This document shows, piece by piece, positions 17,242 to 33,912 of a stretch of DNA of 41,172 nt. A program made the position numbers and the translations under genes. Source of the DNA: Gemmatimonadota bacterium. GTDB taxonomy: Bacteria; JAAXHH01. Within the stretch, counting starts at the first letter, position 1; each line of letters opens with the position of its first letter. The DNA lies in contig VXTP01000039.1 of NCBI GenBank assembly GCA_009837395.1, positions 1 to 41,172 on the forward strand. The letters are read 5' to 3'. Under the pieces are notes generated by a model. That model was given only the letters and a program-made list of their open reading frames with translations. It was not told where the DNA came from and made no database searches.

Positions 17242-20200
17242 TCATCGCGTGATAGCACAGTTCTCTACTCTTCTATCCTCGATTCCCGCCAGCCACATCT
17301 GGAATCCGGCGTTCAAAGGGGCGCACAACTGTGTGTCTTGCAACTTCAGCCGTTCAAGGGGTACATTGACGAGTTCGAGAGGGAGCCGCCCGGACATTTG
17401 CGTGTTCCGTGTCAGAATCAACTGCTTGAGATTCGTGAGTCGGCCGAATTCCGGTGGAATTGAACCGGTAAAGTCGTTGTGAGAGAAAAACAGCCACGAT
17501 AACTCAGTCAGTTTTCCGATCTCCGGAGGGAGAGGACCGGTCAACTTGTTGTTAAACAGTTCGATGTGTGTCAGCCTGGTCATTTGACCGATTTCGGGTG
17601 GGATGGAACCGGTCAACTCGTTAGCACTGACATCAAGCCCATCCAGATTGGTCAGTTTTCCGACCTCCGGGGGGATAACACCTTCCAATCGGTTATACTG
17701 AAGACTCAGCAACTCCAGACTGGACAGTTGTCCGATTTCAGGTGGGATGGGGCCGGTCAGCCGGTTGTGGTTAAGCCACAGGTTGCGGAGACTCTCGAAT
17801 GACAGGATTTCGGTTGGAATCGTCCCGGTCAGTTCGTTAGATCGCAACACAAGCCATTCCAGGTTGCCCAATCGTCCAATCTCGACAGGGATAGCGCCTG
17901 ATATCTGGTTGTATTCAAGGAATAGATCCGTGAGTTTCGAAAGCATTCCAATCTCTGGCGGAATGGAACCGGTCAACTGGTTCTGTCCCAGATCCAACAC
18001 TTTCAGACTGCCCAGCTGCCCGATCTCGGGGGGAATCGGACCACTCAACGAGTTTCTGAAGAGTCGCAGCGTTCGCAGATCGGACAGTTGCCCGATCTCG
18101 GGTGGAATCATTCCGAGCAGGTTGTTCTCGCTCAGTCGCAGGTCGATCACCTTCACTTCGTTGTCTGTCGCTACACCGTACCAGGTTCCAATAGGTTCGT
18201 CGCTCAGCCAGTTTGTGTTGTCCGTCCAGTTCGGACCATCGGTCGCGTGGTAGAAGGCAATGAGCGCGTCGCGGTCGGACGAGGTATCTGACGACGGCGG
18301 AGGTTCCGGATCTGTGTCAGGTCCTGGCATGGTGGCACAGTTCTCCACGCTTTTATCCTCGATTCCCGCCAGCCACATCTGGAATCCGGCGTTCAAAGGC
18401 GCGCACAACTGCGTGTTTTGCAATCTGAGCTGTACCAGGGGAACATTCACGAGTTCAATTGGGAGAGGTCCGGACAAATCACGATTATCGTTCAGTATCA
18501 GCCGATCCATCTTATTGAGTTGCCCGATTTCGGGTGGAAGACCTCCGGACAACTGGTTGTCGCTTAAAATGAGGCTCTTGAGACCGACAAGTTGGCCGAT
18601 TTCTGACGGGATTTCGCCGGTCAACCGGTTTCCGTGCAACACCAGGCCATTCAGGTTTACAAGCTGTCCGATCTCGGACGGAATCTCTCCGGTCAGTAAG
18701 TTGTCGTTTAACAACAAGCCGTTCAGCTTTTCAAGTTGCCCGATTTCGTGCGGGATCACGCCCGTTAACCGGTTGCCTTCGAGCGACAGGGAGCCCAGAT
18801 TCAAAAGTTGCCCGATTTCGTGCGGGATTACGCCCGTGAGCTGATTCCCGTTCAGGGCGAGATAGGCCAGATTACTCAATTGTCCGATTTCAGGCGGAAT
18901 ATGTCCGGTAAATTGGTTCGTGGAGAGGTGCAGGTCTATTAGATTGGCCAGTTTCCCTATCGCAGGTGGAATTTCGCCCGATAGCTGATTGTCAAACAGT
19001 GACAGGATCATGAGTGTGTTTGACTGATAGGTTTCAGGTGGAATTTCGCCGGTGAGTTGATTGTCCCCCAGGTGCAAATACCGCAGTGCGTTCATTTTTC
19101 CGAATACAGGCGGGATTGTACCGGTGATACGGTTGCGCGACAGATTCAGCAGTATAAGGTTCTGCAGTTGTTCGATTTCAGGCGGAATGGATCCGGTCAA
19201 CTGGTTCTCGCGCAGACTGAGCTTGGTCACCCTCCCATCGGCGTCCGTGGACACTCCGTACCATTCATTGAGAGGATTCTCACTCAGCCACTTGGTATTG
19301 TCCATCCAGTTCGGGCCGTCCGTTGCGTGGTAGAAAGCGATCAGTGCTTCGCGATCGGCCGACGTACCCGGCGGCTCCGGTGGCGGTGGAGGCGGTTCAG
19401 GTGGCACAGGCGGCGGCTCGGGCTGCTCTGTATCCTCGATGACCACGTGTATGATCGCCTGCGCCGACACGCCGCGGGAGGAAGCCGTGATCCGCGTCGT
19501 GCCGTTCGCCACCGCGATCACCAGGCCGCTGGCGTCCACCGTGGCGATCTCCGGCCGGCTGCTCGTCCACGCCACCGCCGCGCCCGGGATGGCTGCCCCT
19601 GCCGAATCGTACACCTGGGCGTCCAGCTGCAGGCTCTGGCCCACGGTCGCCAGCGTCGCTTCTGTTACGTTGAGCACGACACGCGAAGGCACCCGCGGGA
19701 CCTCGACGAACACCGGCCGGGACGTGGAGACTCCACCCGAGGAGGCCGTGATCAGGGCGGATCCCCGCGACACCGCCGTCAGCCGTCCGTTGGCGTCCAC
19801 CGTGGCGATCTCCGGATTACTGCTGGACCAGACCACCGCCGCATCCGGGATGGGCCTGTTGTTCGCGTCGTAGACGACCGCCGTGAATCGGCCTGTCCCG
19901 CCCACTTGCGAAATCGTGATGGCAGATGGGCTGATCTCGATGCTGCTCGCCTCCTGCTCCACCGAGACCGTCGCGGTAGCCGTGGCGTAACCTGAACTGA
20001 CGCTGATCTGTGTCGTTCCGCTCCCAGCGGCCGTCACCACGCCCCGGTCGCTGACCCGGGCGACACTGTTGTCCGCGCTGCGCCAGTGCACCGTGGCGTC
20101 GGTGATCACCCTGCTGTCCTGGTCCAGCACCGTGGCGTCGATGCGTATACTCTCGTTGATGGCCGTGAAGACGATCCGGTAGGTCGACAGCGTGATCGTG

Positions 20201-26676: not shown

Positions 26677-26861
26677 AACGGATCGAACTTCTGAAACACC
26701 TTCGGCGAAAAGGATGCGTAATGATTCGTGAAGGCAGACGCCATTCCTGGTGGCGAAATCGTCGAGGGGATCGACGTTCTTCGATTCCACGACATAGAGA
26801 AATACACGACTTGCTTGCGAAAAAGATATGTCGAGATCTTGAGGTAGAGCCGATTAAATAG
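26673..26861 (+). CDS. hicA: HicA-like mRNA interferase toxin
   Basis: A 62-residue protein whose ATG overlaps the hicB stop by 4 bp. It shows the HicA pattern KRIELLKHLRRKGCVMIREG, followed by the active-site region RRHSWW (His24 in the position of the catalytic His), SIPRHREIHDLLAKKI and a short C-terminal helix. HicA toxins bind double-stranded RNA and cleave mRNA when not neutralised by HicB. Length is normal for the family. This is a complete, apparently intact type II toxin-antitoxin pair. Confidence 0.9.
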   Translation: MKRIELLKHLRRKGCVMIREGRRHSWWRNRRGDRRSSIPRHREIHDLLAKKICRDLEVEPIK

Positions 26862-26916
26862 TTGTTGTTTAAGTTTTTCATACAGTGCAGACTGACCGAA
26901 GGATCCATAGTCCGGT

Positions 26917-27033
26917 TTATCTCGATCCTCCGTACGCTCTCTCCCCGATATCCCGTAACATTCGCCTGAAAACCACATACTCCACAAAGGCAAGGCCGGT
27001 CAGCCTGCCTGGGAACTCCTGTGGTTCTTTCAT
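26917..27033 (-). CDS. Possible small protein divergent from lexA
   Basis: A 38-codon frame, ATG at 27033, TAA at 26917. The product would be basic and amphipathic, with a hydrophobic centre (LTGLAFVEYVVFRRMLRDIG). An AGGG lies only 2 bases before the ATG, closer than a normal Shine-Dalgarno. It is divergent from lexA, 53 bp from the SOS operator, and could be a small SOS-induced membrane-active peptide or simply chance. Confidence 0.25.
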   Translation of the reverse strand: MKEPQEFPGRLTGLAFVEYVVFRRMLRDIGERAYGGSR

Positions 27034-27078
27034 AGCCCTTTGATCGGTCTCAATGCTCATTCAGTCCCTAAAAACTGC

Positions 27079-27107
27079 TTGACATAACAGACAAATGTCT
27101 GTTTTAT
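27079..27107 (+). promoter_or_regulatory. lexA promoter with LexA-type SOS operator in its spacer
   Basis: A perfect -35 TTGACA (27079-27084), 17-bp spacer and -10 TTTTAT (27102-27107). The spacer and -10 are covered by a perfect inverted repeat AACAGACA AA TGTCTGTT (27086-27103). Position, symmetry and the downstream lexA-imuAB-dnaE2 genes identify it as the autoregulatory SOS box; its sequence defines the LexA recognition motif for this organism. Confidence 0.88.
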
Positions 27108-27131
27108 GGATTTTCAGGCGCTCGTTTTGGC

Positions 27132-27222
27132 GCGCTGGTCCGTTGCGCCGGCCCGTTGCGCTGGCCCAATTCGTCAGCCCATGGCGCCGGCCCATTTCAG
27201 CGGCCCATCGCGCCGGCCCATA
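27132..27222. repeat. Seven 13-bp tandem repeats in the lexA leader
   Basis: Seven consecutive 13-bp units with exact period, of the type GCGCCGGCCCATT, varying at a few positions. They lie between the lexA promoter and its start codon, in the transcribed leader. The period is not a multiple of three, which argues against coding. Confidence 0.85.
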
Positions 27223-27271
27223 GTGGCGCGCCGCCCCGTTTTCCTCATCCCCGGACCGCGAGGAGACCATC

Positions 27272-27886
27272 ATGGCCTACACATCGCCTGGGAAGACCAG
27301 GGAGAAGATCTACGATTTCGTGCGGGAGCGTATCCTGAGCGGGACCCCGCCCACGACCCGGGACGTGCAGCGCGCATTCGGGTTCCGTGCGGTCCAGTCC
27401 GCCCGCCAGCACCTGGAGAAGCTGGTGTTCGAGGGGAAGCTCGCCAAGGTGGACGGCAGGTCCCGGGGTTACCGGCTGCCGGAGTTCGGCAAGGCCAGTC
27501 CCACCCAGTTGATCGCCATGCTGGGGCGCGTACAGGCGGGCGAGCTGACCGAGGCCATGGAGGATCCGCCGGAATACATCATGGTACAGACGCGTTTCGA
27601 CGACGATGAACTCTTCGCCCTGACCGTGGAGGGGGAGAGCATGCTTCATGCCGGCATCCTGCCGGGGGACATGGTGATCGTGCGCCGGCAGCCGACGGCC
27701 AGTCCGGGGGACATCGTGGTGGCCCTGGTGGGCGATGAGGCGACGGTCAAGCGGTACCGGGAGCGGGACGGCCGCGTCGAGCTGCATCCGGAGAACGAGG
27801 CCTTCGACCCGATCATCCCCCGGGAGGATGGCGCGCCCTTCTCGCTGCTGGGCAAGGTCATCGAGATACGGCGGAGTGTTGAGTAG
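27272..27886 (+). CDS. lexA: LexA SOS repressor
   Basis: A 204-residue protein from ATG with GAGGAG upstream. N-terminal winged helix (KTREKIYDFVRERILSGTPPTTRDVQRAFGFRAVQSARQHLEKL), then the self-cleavage site Ala89-Gly90 in VQAGEL, catalytic Ser123 in EGESMLHAG and Lys160 in EATVKRY. The spacings are nearly the same as in E. coli LexA. It represses its own operon until RecA-stimulated autocleavage after DNA damage. It is first in lexA-imuA-imuB-dnaE2 (52 bp to imuA), so the mutagenesis genes respond directly through this promoter. The HTH recognition region differs from E. coli, consistent with the non-E. coli operator. Confidence 0.97.
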   Translation: MAYTSPGKTREKIYDFVRERILSGTPPTTRDVQRAFGFRAVQSARQHLEKLVFEGKLAKVDGRSRGYRLPEFGKASPTQLIAMLGRVQAGELTEAMEDPPEYIMVQTRFDDDELFALTVEGESMLHAGILPGDMVIVRRQPTASPGDIVVALVGDEATVKRYRERDGRVELHPENEAFDPIIPREDGAPFSLLGKVIEIRRSVE

Positions 27887-27938
27887 GACGGCCGGTCCGG
27901 CGCGTCGAGTAACACATCGCACAACCGAAGGAATCATC

Positions 27939-28574
27939 ATGCCGTCCCTGCAGGACCGGGATCTGCAGGATCTCGAACCCTATTTCACGCGGATGCCCGC
28001 CGGAAAGCGGGAGGAGCGGCCGTGCTGGTCGCGGTCGCATTTGGCCGGGCGCCTCTGCGAGCTCTCGTCCGTCCCGGGGGCCGCCCTGCTGACGGCCGCC
28101 TTCCGTCTGGTGCTGGACGCCCAGCTCGAGGGCGAGCCGGCGGCCTGGATCACGGCGACGCCGGACACCTTCTTCGCGCCGGACGCGGCGGAGAGCGGCG
28201 TGGACCTGGACGCCCTGGTGGTCATCCGCGTGCCGGACGCCCGGGCCGCGGCGCGGGCGGCGGACCGGGTCCTGCGTTCGGGCGGCTTCGGCCTGGTGGT
28301 GATGGACCTGCACGCCGATTCCAGGATCCCCGTGCCCCTGCAGGTGCGCCTGGCCCGGCAGGCGCGGGACCACCATGCCGCCCTCCTGTGCCTGACCGCC
28401 AAGTCCCGCGAGGCGCCTTCGCTGGGGCCGATGGTCACCCTGAGGGGCCAGACCTCCTGCCGCCGCCTGGCGGTGGACCGTTTTCAATGCGAAGTCGAAA
28501 TCCTGAAGGACAAACGTCATGGACCGGGCTGGCGCCACACCGAAATCTGCCGCGGGCCGGACGGCCTGCATTAA
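27939..28574 (+). CDS. imuA: ImuA-type SOS mutagenesis accessory protein
   Basis: A 211-residue protein from ATG 27939 with AAGGA upstream. It has the RecA/SulA-like core of ImuA proteins (PGAALLTAAFRLVLDAQ, AAWITATPDTFFAPDA, DALVVIRVPDARAAARAADRVLRSGGFGLVVMDLHAD, ARDHHAALLCLTAKSREAPSLGPMVTLR). No intact Walker A, as is common in shortened ImuA forms. It would work with ImuB and DnaE2 in translesion synthesis. Its last 56 bp overlap the start of imuB. Assignment rests on pattern and operon position. Confidence 0.85.
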   Translation: MPSLQDRDLQDLEPYFTRMPAGKREERPCWSRSHLAGRLCELSSVPGAALLTAAFRLVLDAQLEGEPAAWITATPDTFFAPDAAESGVDLDALVVIRVPDARAAARAADRVLRSGGFGLVVMDLHADSRIPVPLQVRLARQARDHHAALLCLTAKSREAPSLGPMVTLRGQTSCRRLAVDRFQCEVEILKDKRHGPGWRHTEICRGPDGLH

Positions 28575-30009
28575 CATCCGGGCGCTGCCGCTCCGGCTCC
28601 TGCTGAGGAGCCATCCGCAGTGGCGGGAACGGCCGGTGGCGGTGGTGGAAGAGGATAAGCCCCTGAGCCCCATCCTGTGGCTCAACGCCGCGGCCGTCAA
28701 GGGCGGGATCCGTCCGGGCATGAAGTACGCCGCGGCCCTCTCCCTGGACCGCGGCCTGTGCGCCGGGACGGTTTCGGAGGAGGAGGTCGGGGCGGCGGTC
28801 CGGCAGGTCCACGGCGTGCTGGACCGTTTCAGCCCCCGGGTGGAGCCGAGCGCCGAGGAGCCGGGGATCTTCTGGGTGGACGCGGGGGGACTGGACCGGC
28901 TCTACGCGTCGCTGGAGGACTGGGCCGGGCAGATGCACGCCGCCCTCTCCGGGCTGGAACTGCCGGCGAGCATCGCGGTCGGTTTCGGCCGCTTCGGCAC
29001 CTATGCTGTCGCCAAGGCGAGGGACGCGGTGGTCGTGCTCCCCACCATGGCGGCCGAGGATACCGAAAGCCGAAAGGTGCGGCTGCTCGATCTGCAGCTC
29101 GAGCCGAAGCTGCGGGAACGGCTGGACAAGCTGGCCGTGTATACCGTGGGGGATTTCCTGGCCCTTCCCGGGGAGCGGATCGCCCGGCATCTCGGCGAGC
29201 AGGCCCGGGCCCTCTACCGCTTCGCGGCGGGAGACCGGTCCCTGCCCCTTCAGCCGCGGGGCCTTTCCGAACCGCTCCGCGCCCGGATGGAACTGGACGC
29301 GAACGAATCGGACGCCCGGGGCCTCCAGTTCCGGGTGTCCCAGCTATTGGCGCCCCTGCTGAAGGCCGCGGGCGAAAGATACCAGGCGGCCGCCGCCCTC
29401 CGGCTGGCGTTCCGGCAGGAGAACGGCACGCGCCACCGCTGCCGGATCCAGGCGGCCGAACCGACGCTGGATGCCAGGGTCTTGCTGGAACTGGTGGGCC
29501 TGCGCCTGGAAACGATTTCCTTCCCCTTCCCCCCGGTGGAGCTGGCCCTCGAGGTGGAGGGCGTGCCCGTCACCGCCGACAAGCTGAACCTCCTGCAGGA
29601 GAATCCGGACCGCGACACCGGTTCGGCCATGCGGGCCCTGGCGCGGGTCCGGGCCGAGTTCGGCCCCGGTTCGGTCCTCACGGCGCGGCTGGCGTCGGGC
29701 CATCTCCCGGAAGCCCGTTTCGGGTGGCAGCCCTTCGGCAAGCTCGCCGCGGCCGCCCCCCGGCCGGTGGCCGTGCGCGCCCTGGTGCGCCGCGCCCACG
29801 CCAGTCCCCGGCTCCTGGAAGGCCAGCCCGTGAACTGGCAGGCGCCTTCGGGCCCTGGCCCGCCCCCGGAACACCTGGTCAGCGGCGGATGGTGGGTCCG
29901 GGAAATCCGGAGGGCTTACCGTTTCGTCGACACCGCGCGGGGCGAAACCCTCTGGATCTACTACGACCACGGGAGCGGCCGCTGGTACGTCCAGGGCCGG
30001 GTGGAATAA
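28519..30009 (+). CDS. imuB: ImuB, catalytically inactive Y-family polymerase-like protein
   Basis: A 496-residue protein from ATG 28519 with AAGGA upstream, overlapping imuA. It has the Y-family outline (palm/fingers about 15-230, thumb HhH motif [23 protein letters not shown], little finger 250-370, then an ImuB C-terminal extension). The metal-binding acidic residues are lost: the first Asp region reads [14 protein letters not shown], and the second reads [12 protein letters not shown] in place of SxDE. This is typical of ImuB, which is an adaptor linking the beta clamp, ImuA and DnaE2. KLNLLQ (about 355) resembles a clamp-binding motif but is not canonical. Its stop overlaps the dnaE2 start (TAATG). 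Confidence 0.93.
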
Positions 30010-33000
30010 TGGCCGGCCCCTACGCGCCCCTCTGGTGCAAGAGCAATTACTCCTTCCTGGAAGGGGCCAGCCATCCCGAGGAACTGGTGGAGGCCTGCCG
30101 GCGCCTGGGGCTTCCCTCCCTGGCCCTCACCGACCGCAACGGGGTGTACGGCATCGTGCGGGCCCACGTCCGCGCCCGGGAACTGGACGTCCACCTGGTC
30201 GTGGGGTCGCAGGTCAGCCTCCGGGACGGCTCGGAGATCGTGCTGCTGGTCCAGGATCGGGAGGGCTACGCCCATCTCTGCCGGCTGCTGACCGCCGGGC
30301 ACCTGCGCGGCGCCAAGGGGAACTGCCGGGTGAGCTGGGAGGAGGTGTGCCGCCACAGCCCGGGGCTGATCGCCCTGTGGATCGGTGGAACAGGGTCGAC
30401 GGGCTCCGGGGGAATCGGTCCGGCTGGCGGCGACGTCGCGTCCGCCGGCGCGTCCGGCTCGAACCTTTCGGGCTTGGCCGCCCCCGCCCCCTTCCCCGAA
30501 CCGCTCCGCGCGGCCTTCGAAGACCGCCTGTACGTGGTCCTGGCCCGGCACCGCCGGGCGGAGGAGACCCTGAAGGAGATCCGCCTGCGGGAACTGGCGG
30601 ACCGGTTCGGCCTGCCCACCGTGGCCGCCGTGGAGGCCCTCTACCATACGCCCGGACGGCGCCCCCTGCAGGACGTGCTGACCTGCATCCGGGAGGGGGT
30701 GACCCTGCCCGCGGCCGGGCGGCTCCTCCGGCCGAACGACCAGCACGCGCTCAAGGGGCCGGAGGACATGGCCCGCCTCTTCGCCGACGACCCGGCGTCC
30801 CTCGAGCGGACCCGCGAGGTGGCCGCCCGCTGCGCCTTCTCCCTCGGGGAACTGCGCTACCGCTACCCGCTGGAGCACCTGCCGAGGGGCAAGACGTCCA
30901 TCCAGTACCTGGAGGAGCGTACCTTCGAGGGCGCGGCCCGCCGCCTGGGAAGCAAGTTCGAAACGCAGGTCCCCCAGCTGAAGAAGGAACTCGCGCTGAT
31001 CCGGGAGCTGGAGTACGAGGGTTATTTCCTGACCATGCACGAGATCGTGGAGTACTGCCGCCGCGAGCGCATCCTCTGCCAGGGCCGCGGGTCGGCGGCC
31101 AACTCCGCCGTCTGCTTCGCCCTGGGCATCACGGGCGTGGACCCCACCCAGGTGAACCTCCTCTTCGAGCGGTTCATTTCCAGGGAAAGGGCCGAGCCGC
31201 CGGACATCGACCTGGACATCGAGCACAACCGCCGGGAGGAGGTGATCCAGCACGTGTACAAGAAGTACGGCCGCACCCACGCCGCCATGGTGGCCAACGT
31301 GGTCCGCTACCGCCACCGGTCCGCCATCCGGGAGGTGGGCAAGGTCCTCGAGGTCCCGGCCACCGGCCTGGACCGCCTGGCCCGGCAGGTGTCCCACGGG
31401 CACTGGGACGAGGACTTCATCCGGCAGGCCGGCCTCGACCCGGAGAACCCGGCCCTGCGCCACCTGGCCGCCCTGGTACTGGAGATCCAGGACTTCCCCC
31501 GCCACCTCTCCATCCACCCCGGGGGCTTCCTGCTGGGCCACCACCCCGTCCACGACCTGGTGCCCATCGAGAACGCCACCATGGAGGGGCGGACGGTGAT
31601 CCAGTGGGACAAGGAGGACGTGGAGGACGCGGGGCTGTTCAAGGTGGACCTCCTGGGCCTGGGCGCCCTCAACCTGCTGCACCTCGGCTTCGACCTCCTG
31701 CGGCGGCACCGCCGGATGGAGCTCTCCCTGGCCACGCTCCCCCGGGAGGACGCCGCCACCTTCGACCTGATCTGCCGCAGCGACACGGTGGGCGTGTTCC
31801 AGATCGAGAGCCGGGCCCAGATGGCCATGCTGGGGCGTCTGAAGCCGCGCACCTACTACGACCTGGTGATCGAGATCAGCATCGTCCGCCCCGGGCCCAT
31901 CACGGGCGGCATGGTCCATCCCTACCTGCGGCGGCGCAACGGCGAGGAAGAGGTCACCTATCCCCACGAAAGCCTCGTGCCCGTCCTGGAGAAGACCCTG
32001 GGCGTGCCCCTCTTCCAGGAGCAGGTGATGCAGCTGGCCATGGTGGCGGCGGACTACACCCCCGGCGAGGCCGACCAGCTCCGGCGGGACATGGCCGCCT
32101 GGCGGCGGTCGGGACGGATCGAGCGGCACCGGGAACGGCTGGTCTCGCGCATGATCAAAAAAGGCATCCGGCAGGAATTCGCCGAGCACGTCTTCATGCA
32201 GATCCGCGGTTTCGGCGAGTACGGCTTCCCGGAGAGCCACGCCGCCAGCTTCGCCCACATCGCCTACGCCACCGCCTACCTGCGCTGCCACTACCCGGCG
32301 GAGTTTACCTGCGCCCTGCTGAACGCCCAGCCCATGGGGTTCTACTCGCCCTCCACCATCGTCAACGACGCCAGGATACACGGGGTGGAGGTGCGCCCGG
32401 TGAGCCTGCGCCGCAGCCGCTGGGACTGCACGCTGGAAGAGATCGCGCGGGAGGGCGGTGGTGGCGCGGGTGGTGGCCGCGGCGCGAGCGGTCCAGTCGG
32501 CAGTGAGGGCGGTGGCGGTGCGACCGGAGCGGGTTCGGACCGCGGCGCGAGCGGCCGCAAGCCCCGCCTCTCCTTCGCGGTCCGCATGGGCCTGCGCTAC
32601 GTCCGCGGACTGGGGGAAGGAGACGGCGCGCGGCTGGAAGCGGCCATGGAGCAGGCGCCCTTCCGCGATATCGCCGACGTCGCCCGGAGAAGCGGCCTGA
32701 ACGCGGACAAACTCGAGTCCCTGGCCGAGGCGGGCGCCTTCGCGTGCTTCGGTCCGCTTGGCCCGTCCGGCCCGGACCGCCGCAGCGCCTTATGGGAGGT
32801 CCTGGGGACCGAAACCGGCGGGCTGCCCCCCTTGCCGCTGAAAGCCCGCGGCGCCCCGCCCCGCTTCCAGTCCCTGAACAGCCTGGAGACCATCCTCTGG
32901 GACCACCAGGCCGCCGGCCACAGCGTGCAGGGCCACCTCCTCAAGCCGCGCCGCGCCGAACTCGCCGCCCGGGGACTGCCCACCGCCCAGGAACTCAACG

Positions 33001-33296
33001 CCATGCCGGACGGCCGCTCGGTTCGCTACGTGGGCCTGGTCATCTGCCGCCAGCGCCCCGGGACCGCCCAGGGCGTCACCTTCATGACGCTGGAGGACGA
33101 GACCGGCTTCGTGAACCTGGTCATCTGGGAAAAGGTGTTCGAGCGCAACGCCCTGCTGGCCAGGACGCTGCACTGCATGGGCGTGACCGGCAACCTGCAG
33201 GTGGGCGAGGGCGTGGTCCACCTCGTGGTCGAGGCGGTCTGGGACCCGAAGCTGGAGGACCGGACGCTGCGGCTGCGGAGCCGGGATTTTCGATGA
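30009..33296 (+). CDS. dnaE2: Error-prone DNA polymerase DnaE2
   Basis: A 1095-residue protein; ATG 30009 overlaps the imuB stop and begins the usual [21 protein letters not shown]. Order: PHP domain (1-270), C-family polymerase palm and fingers with the catalytic Asp cluster PDIDLD (398-403), HhH region and OB-fold (about 1000-1095, ending LRSRDFR). It carries out mutagenic lesion bypass in the SOS response. Two glycine-rich insertions are unusual: about 125-158 in the PHP domain and about 813-850 before the HhH region; the second is built from a DNA-level duplication. A family member is normally about 1050 residues, so these inserts explain the excess. Confidence 0.96.
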
Positions 33297-33299
33297 GAG

Positions 33300-33409
33300 T
33301 TGCAATTGGACGGCCCAAAACTTGCAATCAGCCGCACTATGACTTGCAATTGGACGGCCTAAAACTTTCAATCAGCCGACAATAAACTTGCAATCAGCCG
33401 GGACCGTAC
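33300..33409. repeat. Five 22-bp tandem units immediately after dnaE2
   Basis: Five consecutive 22-bp units start 3 bp after the dnaE2 stop. Each begins TTGCAAT or TTTCAAT and ends AC. Units 1 and 3 continue TGGACGGCC, and units 2, 4 and 5 continue CAGCCG, so two variants alternate. Function unknown. Arrays of repeated approximately 20-bp sites occur at the ends of some insertion sequences (for example IS21 family), but no transposase is present. Confidence 0.85.
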
Positions 33410-33443: not shown

Positions 33444-33770
33444 CTACTTCGCCGGCAGGGAAGCCGCGTAATCGGCGGCGCGGGCGACCCAGGTCGCCAG
33501 GTCATCCTCGCTCGCAATGCCCGCCGGCTCCACCAGGGCCCATCCCCTCATGATCCGTCCCGCGATGTCGGCAGGCTTCGTGTGCGGTTCGGCCAGCGTC
33601 TCCTCGTGCTTCTCCCGCTCGAGTCGTACGATGAGCGAATCCTTCCAGGTCCCCACGCACATGTTGCCGTGGATCATGAAGCAGACGCCTCCGAACATGT
33701 TTTTCTCGGAGAATCCCGGAAGCTGTGTAAGCAGAGGCCGTATCCGGCCGGCCAACGCGTTGTCGCTCAT
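33444..33770 (-). CDS. TfoX N-terminal-domain protein
   Basis: A 108-residue cytosolic protein. The TfoX N-terminal fold is recognisable (LTQLPGFSEKNMFGGVCFMIHGNMCVGTWKDSLIVRLEREKHEETLAEPHTKP, then GRIMRGWALVEPAG). The TfoX C-terminal domain is missing, as in many stand-alone members of unknown role. Convergent with dnaE2 and divergent from the acetyltransferase gene. Confidence 0.88.
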   Translation of the reverse strand: MSDNALAGRIRPLLTQLPGFSEKNMFGGVCFMIHGNMCVGTWKDSLIVRLEREKHEETLAEPHTKPADIAGRIMRGWALVEPAGIASEDDLATWVARAADYAASLPAK

Positions 33771-33912
33771 CTTGACCCGCCTTCCGGAAAATATGGTCGC
33801 CTTCGTTTCAGTTTAATCATTATCATTCCTCAATATAAGTCGACATCAGTTATTTCAACATGGTAACGCGATTACTACGCGATACCAACGCGATTCCCGG
33901 AGAGATTCACAA

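Follow-up and report, generated by a model that had tools for sequence, protein, structure and literature searches.

In the genome designated G000 (3.80 Mb), seven short repeats lie between a predicted LexA-box promoter and the start codon of a lexA gene. This raises the question of whether they take part in the control of that gene or are a local case of intergenic repeat DNA. The original prediction was that they form a GC-rich RNA leader that could fold or bind protein, or an array that varies in copy number and tunes SOS expression. Absence of the array from close relatives with normal lexA control, or its scattering through the genome as a neutral repeat, was to count against this. The window, namely the whole 41,172-nt stretch of DNA that was analysed, is contig C33 of G000, and all coordinates refer to it. 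The features at the locus are as follows.

27079..27107, + strand: predicted promoter, TTGACA (27079-27084), 17 bp, TTTTAT (27102-27107), from the sequence and its conservation in congeners
27087..27102, no strand: LexA-box-like palindrome ACAGACAAATGTCTGT within the promoter, from a pattern search in relatives
27115..27271, + strand: predicted 5' leader of lexA2, 157 nt from CAGGCG
27132..27222, + strand: tandem array of seven 13-bp units, consensus GCGCCGGCCCATT, from direct count, Tandem Repeats Finder and a self-identity test
27260..27265, + strand: GAGGAG, resembling a ribosome-binding site, 6 bases 5' of the ATG
27272..27886, + strand: lexA2, 204 aa (TIGR00498; Pfam LexA_DNA_bind and Peptidase_S24)
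27939..28574, + strand: imuA-like gene, 211 aa (NF033429 ImuA, E 3.9e-6, 26.9 bits, curated cutoff 150; weak RecA matches)
28519..30009, + strand: gene for an ImuB-like Y-family protein (Pfam IMS PF00817, E 1e-9, 38.9 bits, cutoff 23.2)
30009..33296, + strand: dnaE2, error-prone DNA polymerase (NF004225, 1306 bits, cutoff 939)

The array and the cassette that follows it

The interval 27132-27222 is exactly filled by seven back-to-back units. Tandem Repeats Finder reported 27132-27221 with a period of 13, 6.9 copies, 71 % matches, no indels and a score of 82. Self-identity at lag 13 was 0.71, a value reached by none of 5000 dinucleotide shuffles (best shuffle value 0.57, lags 5-39). The predicted repeats are therefore real and, as claimed, their period is exact, but the units are imperfect. 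In order, they match GCGCCGGCCCATT at 10, 12, 11, 9, 13, 9 and 12 of the 13 positions and no two of the seven are identical, though all have a GGCCCRT-like core in common at regular spacing. Self-identity was slightly higher at lag 26 (0.77) than at lag 13, indicating that alternate units are more alike and that the units tend to alternate. A coding role was set aside because 13 is not a multiple of three; three open frames cross the array (27061-27273 on the minus strand, 27106-27609 and 27156-27338 on the plus strand) and were set aside on period alone. What is found here, head-to-tail units beyond chance in non-coding DNA, is the arrangement seen in minisatellites.

The lexA2 product exceeded the TIGR00498 cutoff (152.8 against 110.95 bits), and the gene order is lexA2-imuA-imuB-dnaE2, with the imuB-like Y-family gene followed by dnaE2. 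The gene between lexA2 and imuB probably encodes a diverged ImuA: the position fits, though the score falls well below the family cutoff. As G000 encodes a further LexA on contig C26, which is 37 % identical to LexA2, the gene at 27272..27886 is a second, cassette-heading copy. Hence the array does lie between a LexA-box promoter and a lexA start, as originally described, but this lexA is not the only one. All 12 genomes of the genus carry both this LexA (90-100 % identity) and another (36-39 % identity), and the latter would be the main LexA. Among named relatives, the closest are six loci of 90-100 % identity, from MAGs that bear the label Candidatus Latescibacterota or Gemmatimonadetes bacterium; isolate names and papers on sponge Latescibacterota lead us to guess that they live in sponges. 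In the other two genera of the family only a 35 % match to this LexA was found, and of the 16 genomes of the order, 12 have it at E<=1e-30, every one of them in this genus. Within the order, the leader is therefore not comparable outside the genus.

The TTGACA hexamer is kept in all 12 congeners and TTTTAT in 11 (TTTTTT in G004). A consensus promoter scanner, which requires A at position 2 of the second hexamer, returned no site at 27079-27107, and the lexA2 promoter and transcript start given here are predicted from the sequence. With up to 2 mismatches allowed, all 11 genomes searched have the ACAGACAAATGTCTGT box at the lexA2 promoter, and G011 has one further 2-mismatch site; the reversed pattern, as a control, gave 0-2 matches per genome. 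The twelfth genome, G010, also carries a LexA box at this promoter. As the box is almost confined to the lexA2 promoter in the genomes searched, the palindrome is probably a dedicated operator of the cassette, as for LexA2 in Pseudomonas putida (see below). The array would be transcribed as part of the leader, and a terminator/attenuator scan of 26850-27350 gave no sites.

Other parts of the cassette also differ between congeners. The lexA2-imuA spacer (27887-27938 and its counterparts) contains, in several of them, ACATCGCAC units in varying number, and variable CTGCAGGATCGGGAT-like coding repeats are found at the start of imuA. In G000, imuB and dnaE2 overlap by one base (30009). In six of the 10 congeners measured (G002, G004, G005, G008, G010 and G011; the count leaves out G003), 69-160 extra bases lie between the conserved parts of these two genes, apparently reflecting a longer or shifted dnaE2 start.

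The lexA2 leader in twelve congeners

Leaders were compared in 12 genomes, one per species, and measured from 36 bases after the TTGACA start to the start codon. While TTGACA, the box and lexA2 are kept in all 12, and a GGAG-containing stretch precedes the start codon in each (by eye), the leader is between 77 and 168 nt long. The lengths are 157 nt in G000, 138 in G001, 81 in G002, 120 in G003, 149 in G004, 77 in G005, 155 in G006, 168 in G007, 79 in G008, 104 in G009, 122 in G010 and 136 in G011. Close relatives can differ substantially. The short leaders of G002 and G008 are without the 13-bp array, yet their lexA2 DNA is 98 and 97 % identical, respectively, to that of G000. The leader of G005 is 91 nt shorter than that of its sister G007, the lexA2 genes being 97 % identical. 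Long and short leaders are intermixed in a tree of the cassette (first 2750 nt), in which two nodes have support of just 0.345 and 0.805.

In the shuffle test, a period of 13 or a multiple of it leads in the leaders of G000 and G004 (0 of 500 shuffles), G007 (0.002) and G006 (0.044). The best lag in G001, 39, was not significant (0.42), G005 has a different period of 34 (0.008), and no significant period was detected in G002, G003, G008 (lag 20, 0.054), G009, G010 or G011. Local alignment to the G000 array recovered common segments in G001, G004, G006, G007 and G009, with scores above all 200 shuffles, and none by the same measure in G003, G005, G008, G010 or G011. The G002 score also exceeded the shuffles, but this stems from the common 3' flank and not from the array. 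This distribution suggests that the array is older than parts of the genus and has been shortened or lost more than once.

The predicted variation in copy number is thus borne out across species, as is usual for minisatellites in related genomes, rather than among strains. The array is missing from G002, G008 and G005, where retention of the promoter, box and lexA2 points to normal lexA control, which is an outcome that the original prediction had named as contrary to it.

Tandem arrays elsewhere in the genome

The 13-bp unit is not part of a dispersed repeat family. When 27050-27300 was compared to its own genome using blastn, only itself and 25 chance-level matches were found (next best E 0.24). 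The pattern GGCCCRT-N6-GGCCCRT has three sites in G000, two of which are the array, and one each in G004, G006, G008 and G009; it is absent from six of the 11 genomes searched, and the reversed control gave 0-3 matches per genome. The G004 site is in the lexA2 leader, and those in G006, G008 and G009 are on contigs other than that of lexA2.

Arrays with other, unrelated units are, however, common. In 580 kb of G000 (29 sampled stretches, L144-L172), 22 intergenic tandem arrays were recorded using a filter of period 9-60 and >=2.8 copies and crude gene calls based on codon usage, and 11 of them have a period not divisible by three. For 19 of the 22, a called gene start follows within about 110 bp, a raw count uncorrected for the share of intergenic DNA that lies upstream of genes. 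When arrays in coding DNA are counted as well, those whose period is not a multiple of three numbered 14 in these 580 kb under the same Tandem Repeats Finder filter, compared to three in 423 kb from other bacteria, consisting of 73 lexA neighbourhoods with a GC content of 0.52 (0.62 in G000). No such array was present in the seven of these control loci (41 kb) whose labels are Latescibacterota or Gemmatimonadetes. The lexA2 leader array has more copies (6.9) than any of the 14 sampled in G000 (maximum 5.5), and five of the 14 have a higher score.

Two further loci, chosen for having arrays in G000, were followed through the congeners. Orthologues were identified in all 11 genomes for locus A and in 10 of the 11 for locus B (G011 without a match). 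At locus A, where ten rows were readable (G005, at a contig edge, was left out), a 19-bp unit occurs three times in G000 and G009, twice in G001 and once in each of the remaining seven (by eye). At locus B, also scored by eye, G000 has four copies and G001, G002, G004, G008 and G009 have none; G003 and G006 lack a clear array, and the array of G005 and G007 is a different one. Copy-number turnover at these unrelated loci resembles that of the lexA2 leader array. Hence, the alternative that the array is a scattered neutral repeat does not apply to the 13-bp unit itself but holds in kind, as unrelated intergenic arrays are frequent and two of them vary in a like manner.

Repeats of other types were also noted in the window. 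Tandem repeats of 72 bp at 446-1000 and 18724-18891 presumably encode leucine-rich repeats. A second array near the cassette, at 33300-33394, begins 4 bases past the dnaE2 stop and has units AACTTGCAAT(TGG or CAG)(A or C)CG, mostly 22 bp apart; a minus-strand ORF follows (33444-33776). Arrays of this motif with 22-23 bp (or double) spacing are also found in G003, G004, G006, G007, G009 and G011, recurring about 1.5 kb further on in G003, G007 and G011, and a single site is present in G002 and G010. The stretches compared for G001, G005 and G008 stop before this position. Unlike that of the lexA2 leader array, the core is well conserved, and as 22 bp is about two helical turns, this array could be a candidate for protein binding.

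Alternative explanations and known systems

The array is most likely a locus-specific intergenic minisatellite in the lexA2 leader, arisen in DNA under little constraint through tandem duplications and deletions, and probably near-neutral. This reading is supported because the promoter, box and lexA2 are constant while the leader between them varies. Short GC-rich units would have been duplicated in tandem in the untranslated leader of the cassette, giving growth of the array, and slippage or recombination between short repeats would have lengthened or shortened it. If the leader 3' of the promoter is weakly constrained, such length changes would be tolerated provided that the LexA-box promoter and ribosome site are retained. 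The array would then probably have no dedicated role, and expression would be affected, if at all, only incidentally through leader length and GC content. Some observations point the other way. A minimum length of 77 nt, and the near-conservation of GCTCGTTT near the leader start (identical in seven of the 12 genomes, with a single-base difference in the remaining five), suggest that part of the leader may be constrained. Array segments that are alike persist in G000 and G007, whose lexA2 genes are 89 % identical, and neutral decay on its own would not demand this. The copy number is the highest among the sampled arrays, and the leaders of G000 and G003 fold better than most shuffles. The lower GC of the comparison set and its restriction to lexA neighbourhoods, and the choice of both control loci for their arrays in G000, also weigh against this reading.

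Folding bears on whether the stability or translation of the lexA2-imuA-imuB-dnaE2 mRNA depends on copy number, so that an adjustable leader tunes inducible mutagenesis between species. The range of leader lengths under a conserved promoter would suit this, as would the fold of the G000 leader and gene start (-78.8 kcal/mol, z -2.4; three of 200 shuffles fold as well). However, z-scores were scattered from -3.1 (G003) to +0.9 over the 12 leaders and the predicted shapes, all single-sequence folds, differ. The cost of opening the ribosome site ranged from 6.8 to 12.1 kcal/mol and, judged by eye, did not track leader length. It was 7.9 kcal/mol in G000 with the array or with the array removed in silico, so masking of the ribosome site by the array was rejected. 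A structured RNA leader was likewise rejected on the scattered z-scores, the dissimilar folds and an Rfam search of the window, which gave no match at the gathering score. Given also that two unrelated loci vary in a like manner, we consider an adjustable leader unlikely. A broader version, in which the quick appearance and disappearance of private minisatellites in leaders generally supplies regulatory variation in the genus and at lexA2 sets the cassette leader and thereby the inducible mutation rate between species, is decidedly unlikely. If leader-length turnover did tune the cassette, repeat instability would be linked to inducible mutagenesis.

It is highly improbable that a DNA- or RNA-binding regulator of the cassette recognises the units. 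Their regular spacing and common core could be read in this way, but the unit does not recur as a repeat family in the genome and the 13-bp periodicity is absent from the lexA2 leaders of several congeners. In addition, 13 bp is not near a whole number of helical turns and 26 bp makes roughly two and a half turns. Copy number that differs between species might also suggest that the array is a phase-variable contingency repeat acting as a switch for the cassette inside one population. Such repeats have near-identical units, whereas those here match the consensus at just 9-13 of 13 positions (71 % matches), making recent frequent slippage unlikely and this explanation extremely improbable. The specific RNA fold, protein binding and SOS tuning originally proposed thus found no positive support, and the near-neutral minisatellite is preferred. 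We note that a striking array in an SOS leader can resemble other intergenic DNA of its genome and be missing in close relatives, and caution is therefore appropriate. Tandem-repeat turnover in the leaders of this genus may merit a survey of its own.

Minisatellites (variable-number tandem repeats) are a known kind of repeat in bacterial intergenic DNA. The G000 array is like them in having short head-to-tail units and a copy number that differs between related genomes, but unlike typical examples in that its units are diverged and the variation seen is between species. In a literature search by title and abstract start, tandem repeats in a lexA leader were not found among the matches listed. 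The STAR elements of staphylococci are reported to be intergenic direct repeats as well that vary between genomes, but they belong to one interspersed family (PMC3532100), whereas the arrays in G000 have different units. For the cassette, the closest parallel is in P. putida, where a second lexA heads a lexA2-imuA-imuB-imuC(dnaE2) cassette and LexA2 controls its own operon (PMC3901139, PMC5261740). The present cassette is similarly headed by a second lexA and similarly contains a probable ImuA, a Y-family-like ImuB and DnaE2. It differs in that its relatives are labelled Latescibacterota or Gemmatimonadetes, its putative ImuA scores below the family cutoff, its regulation is predicted from sequence, and its leader contains a variable array.
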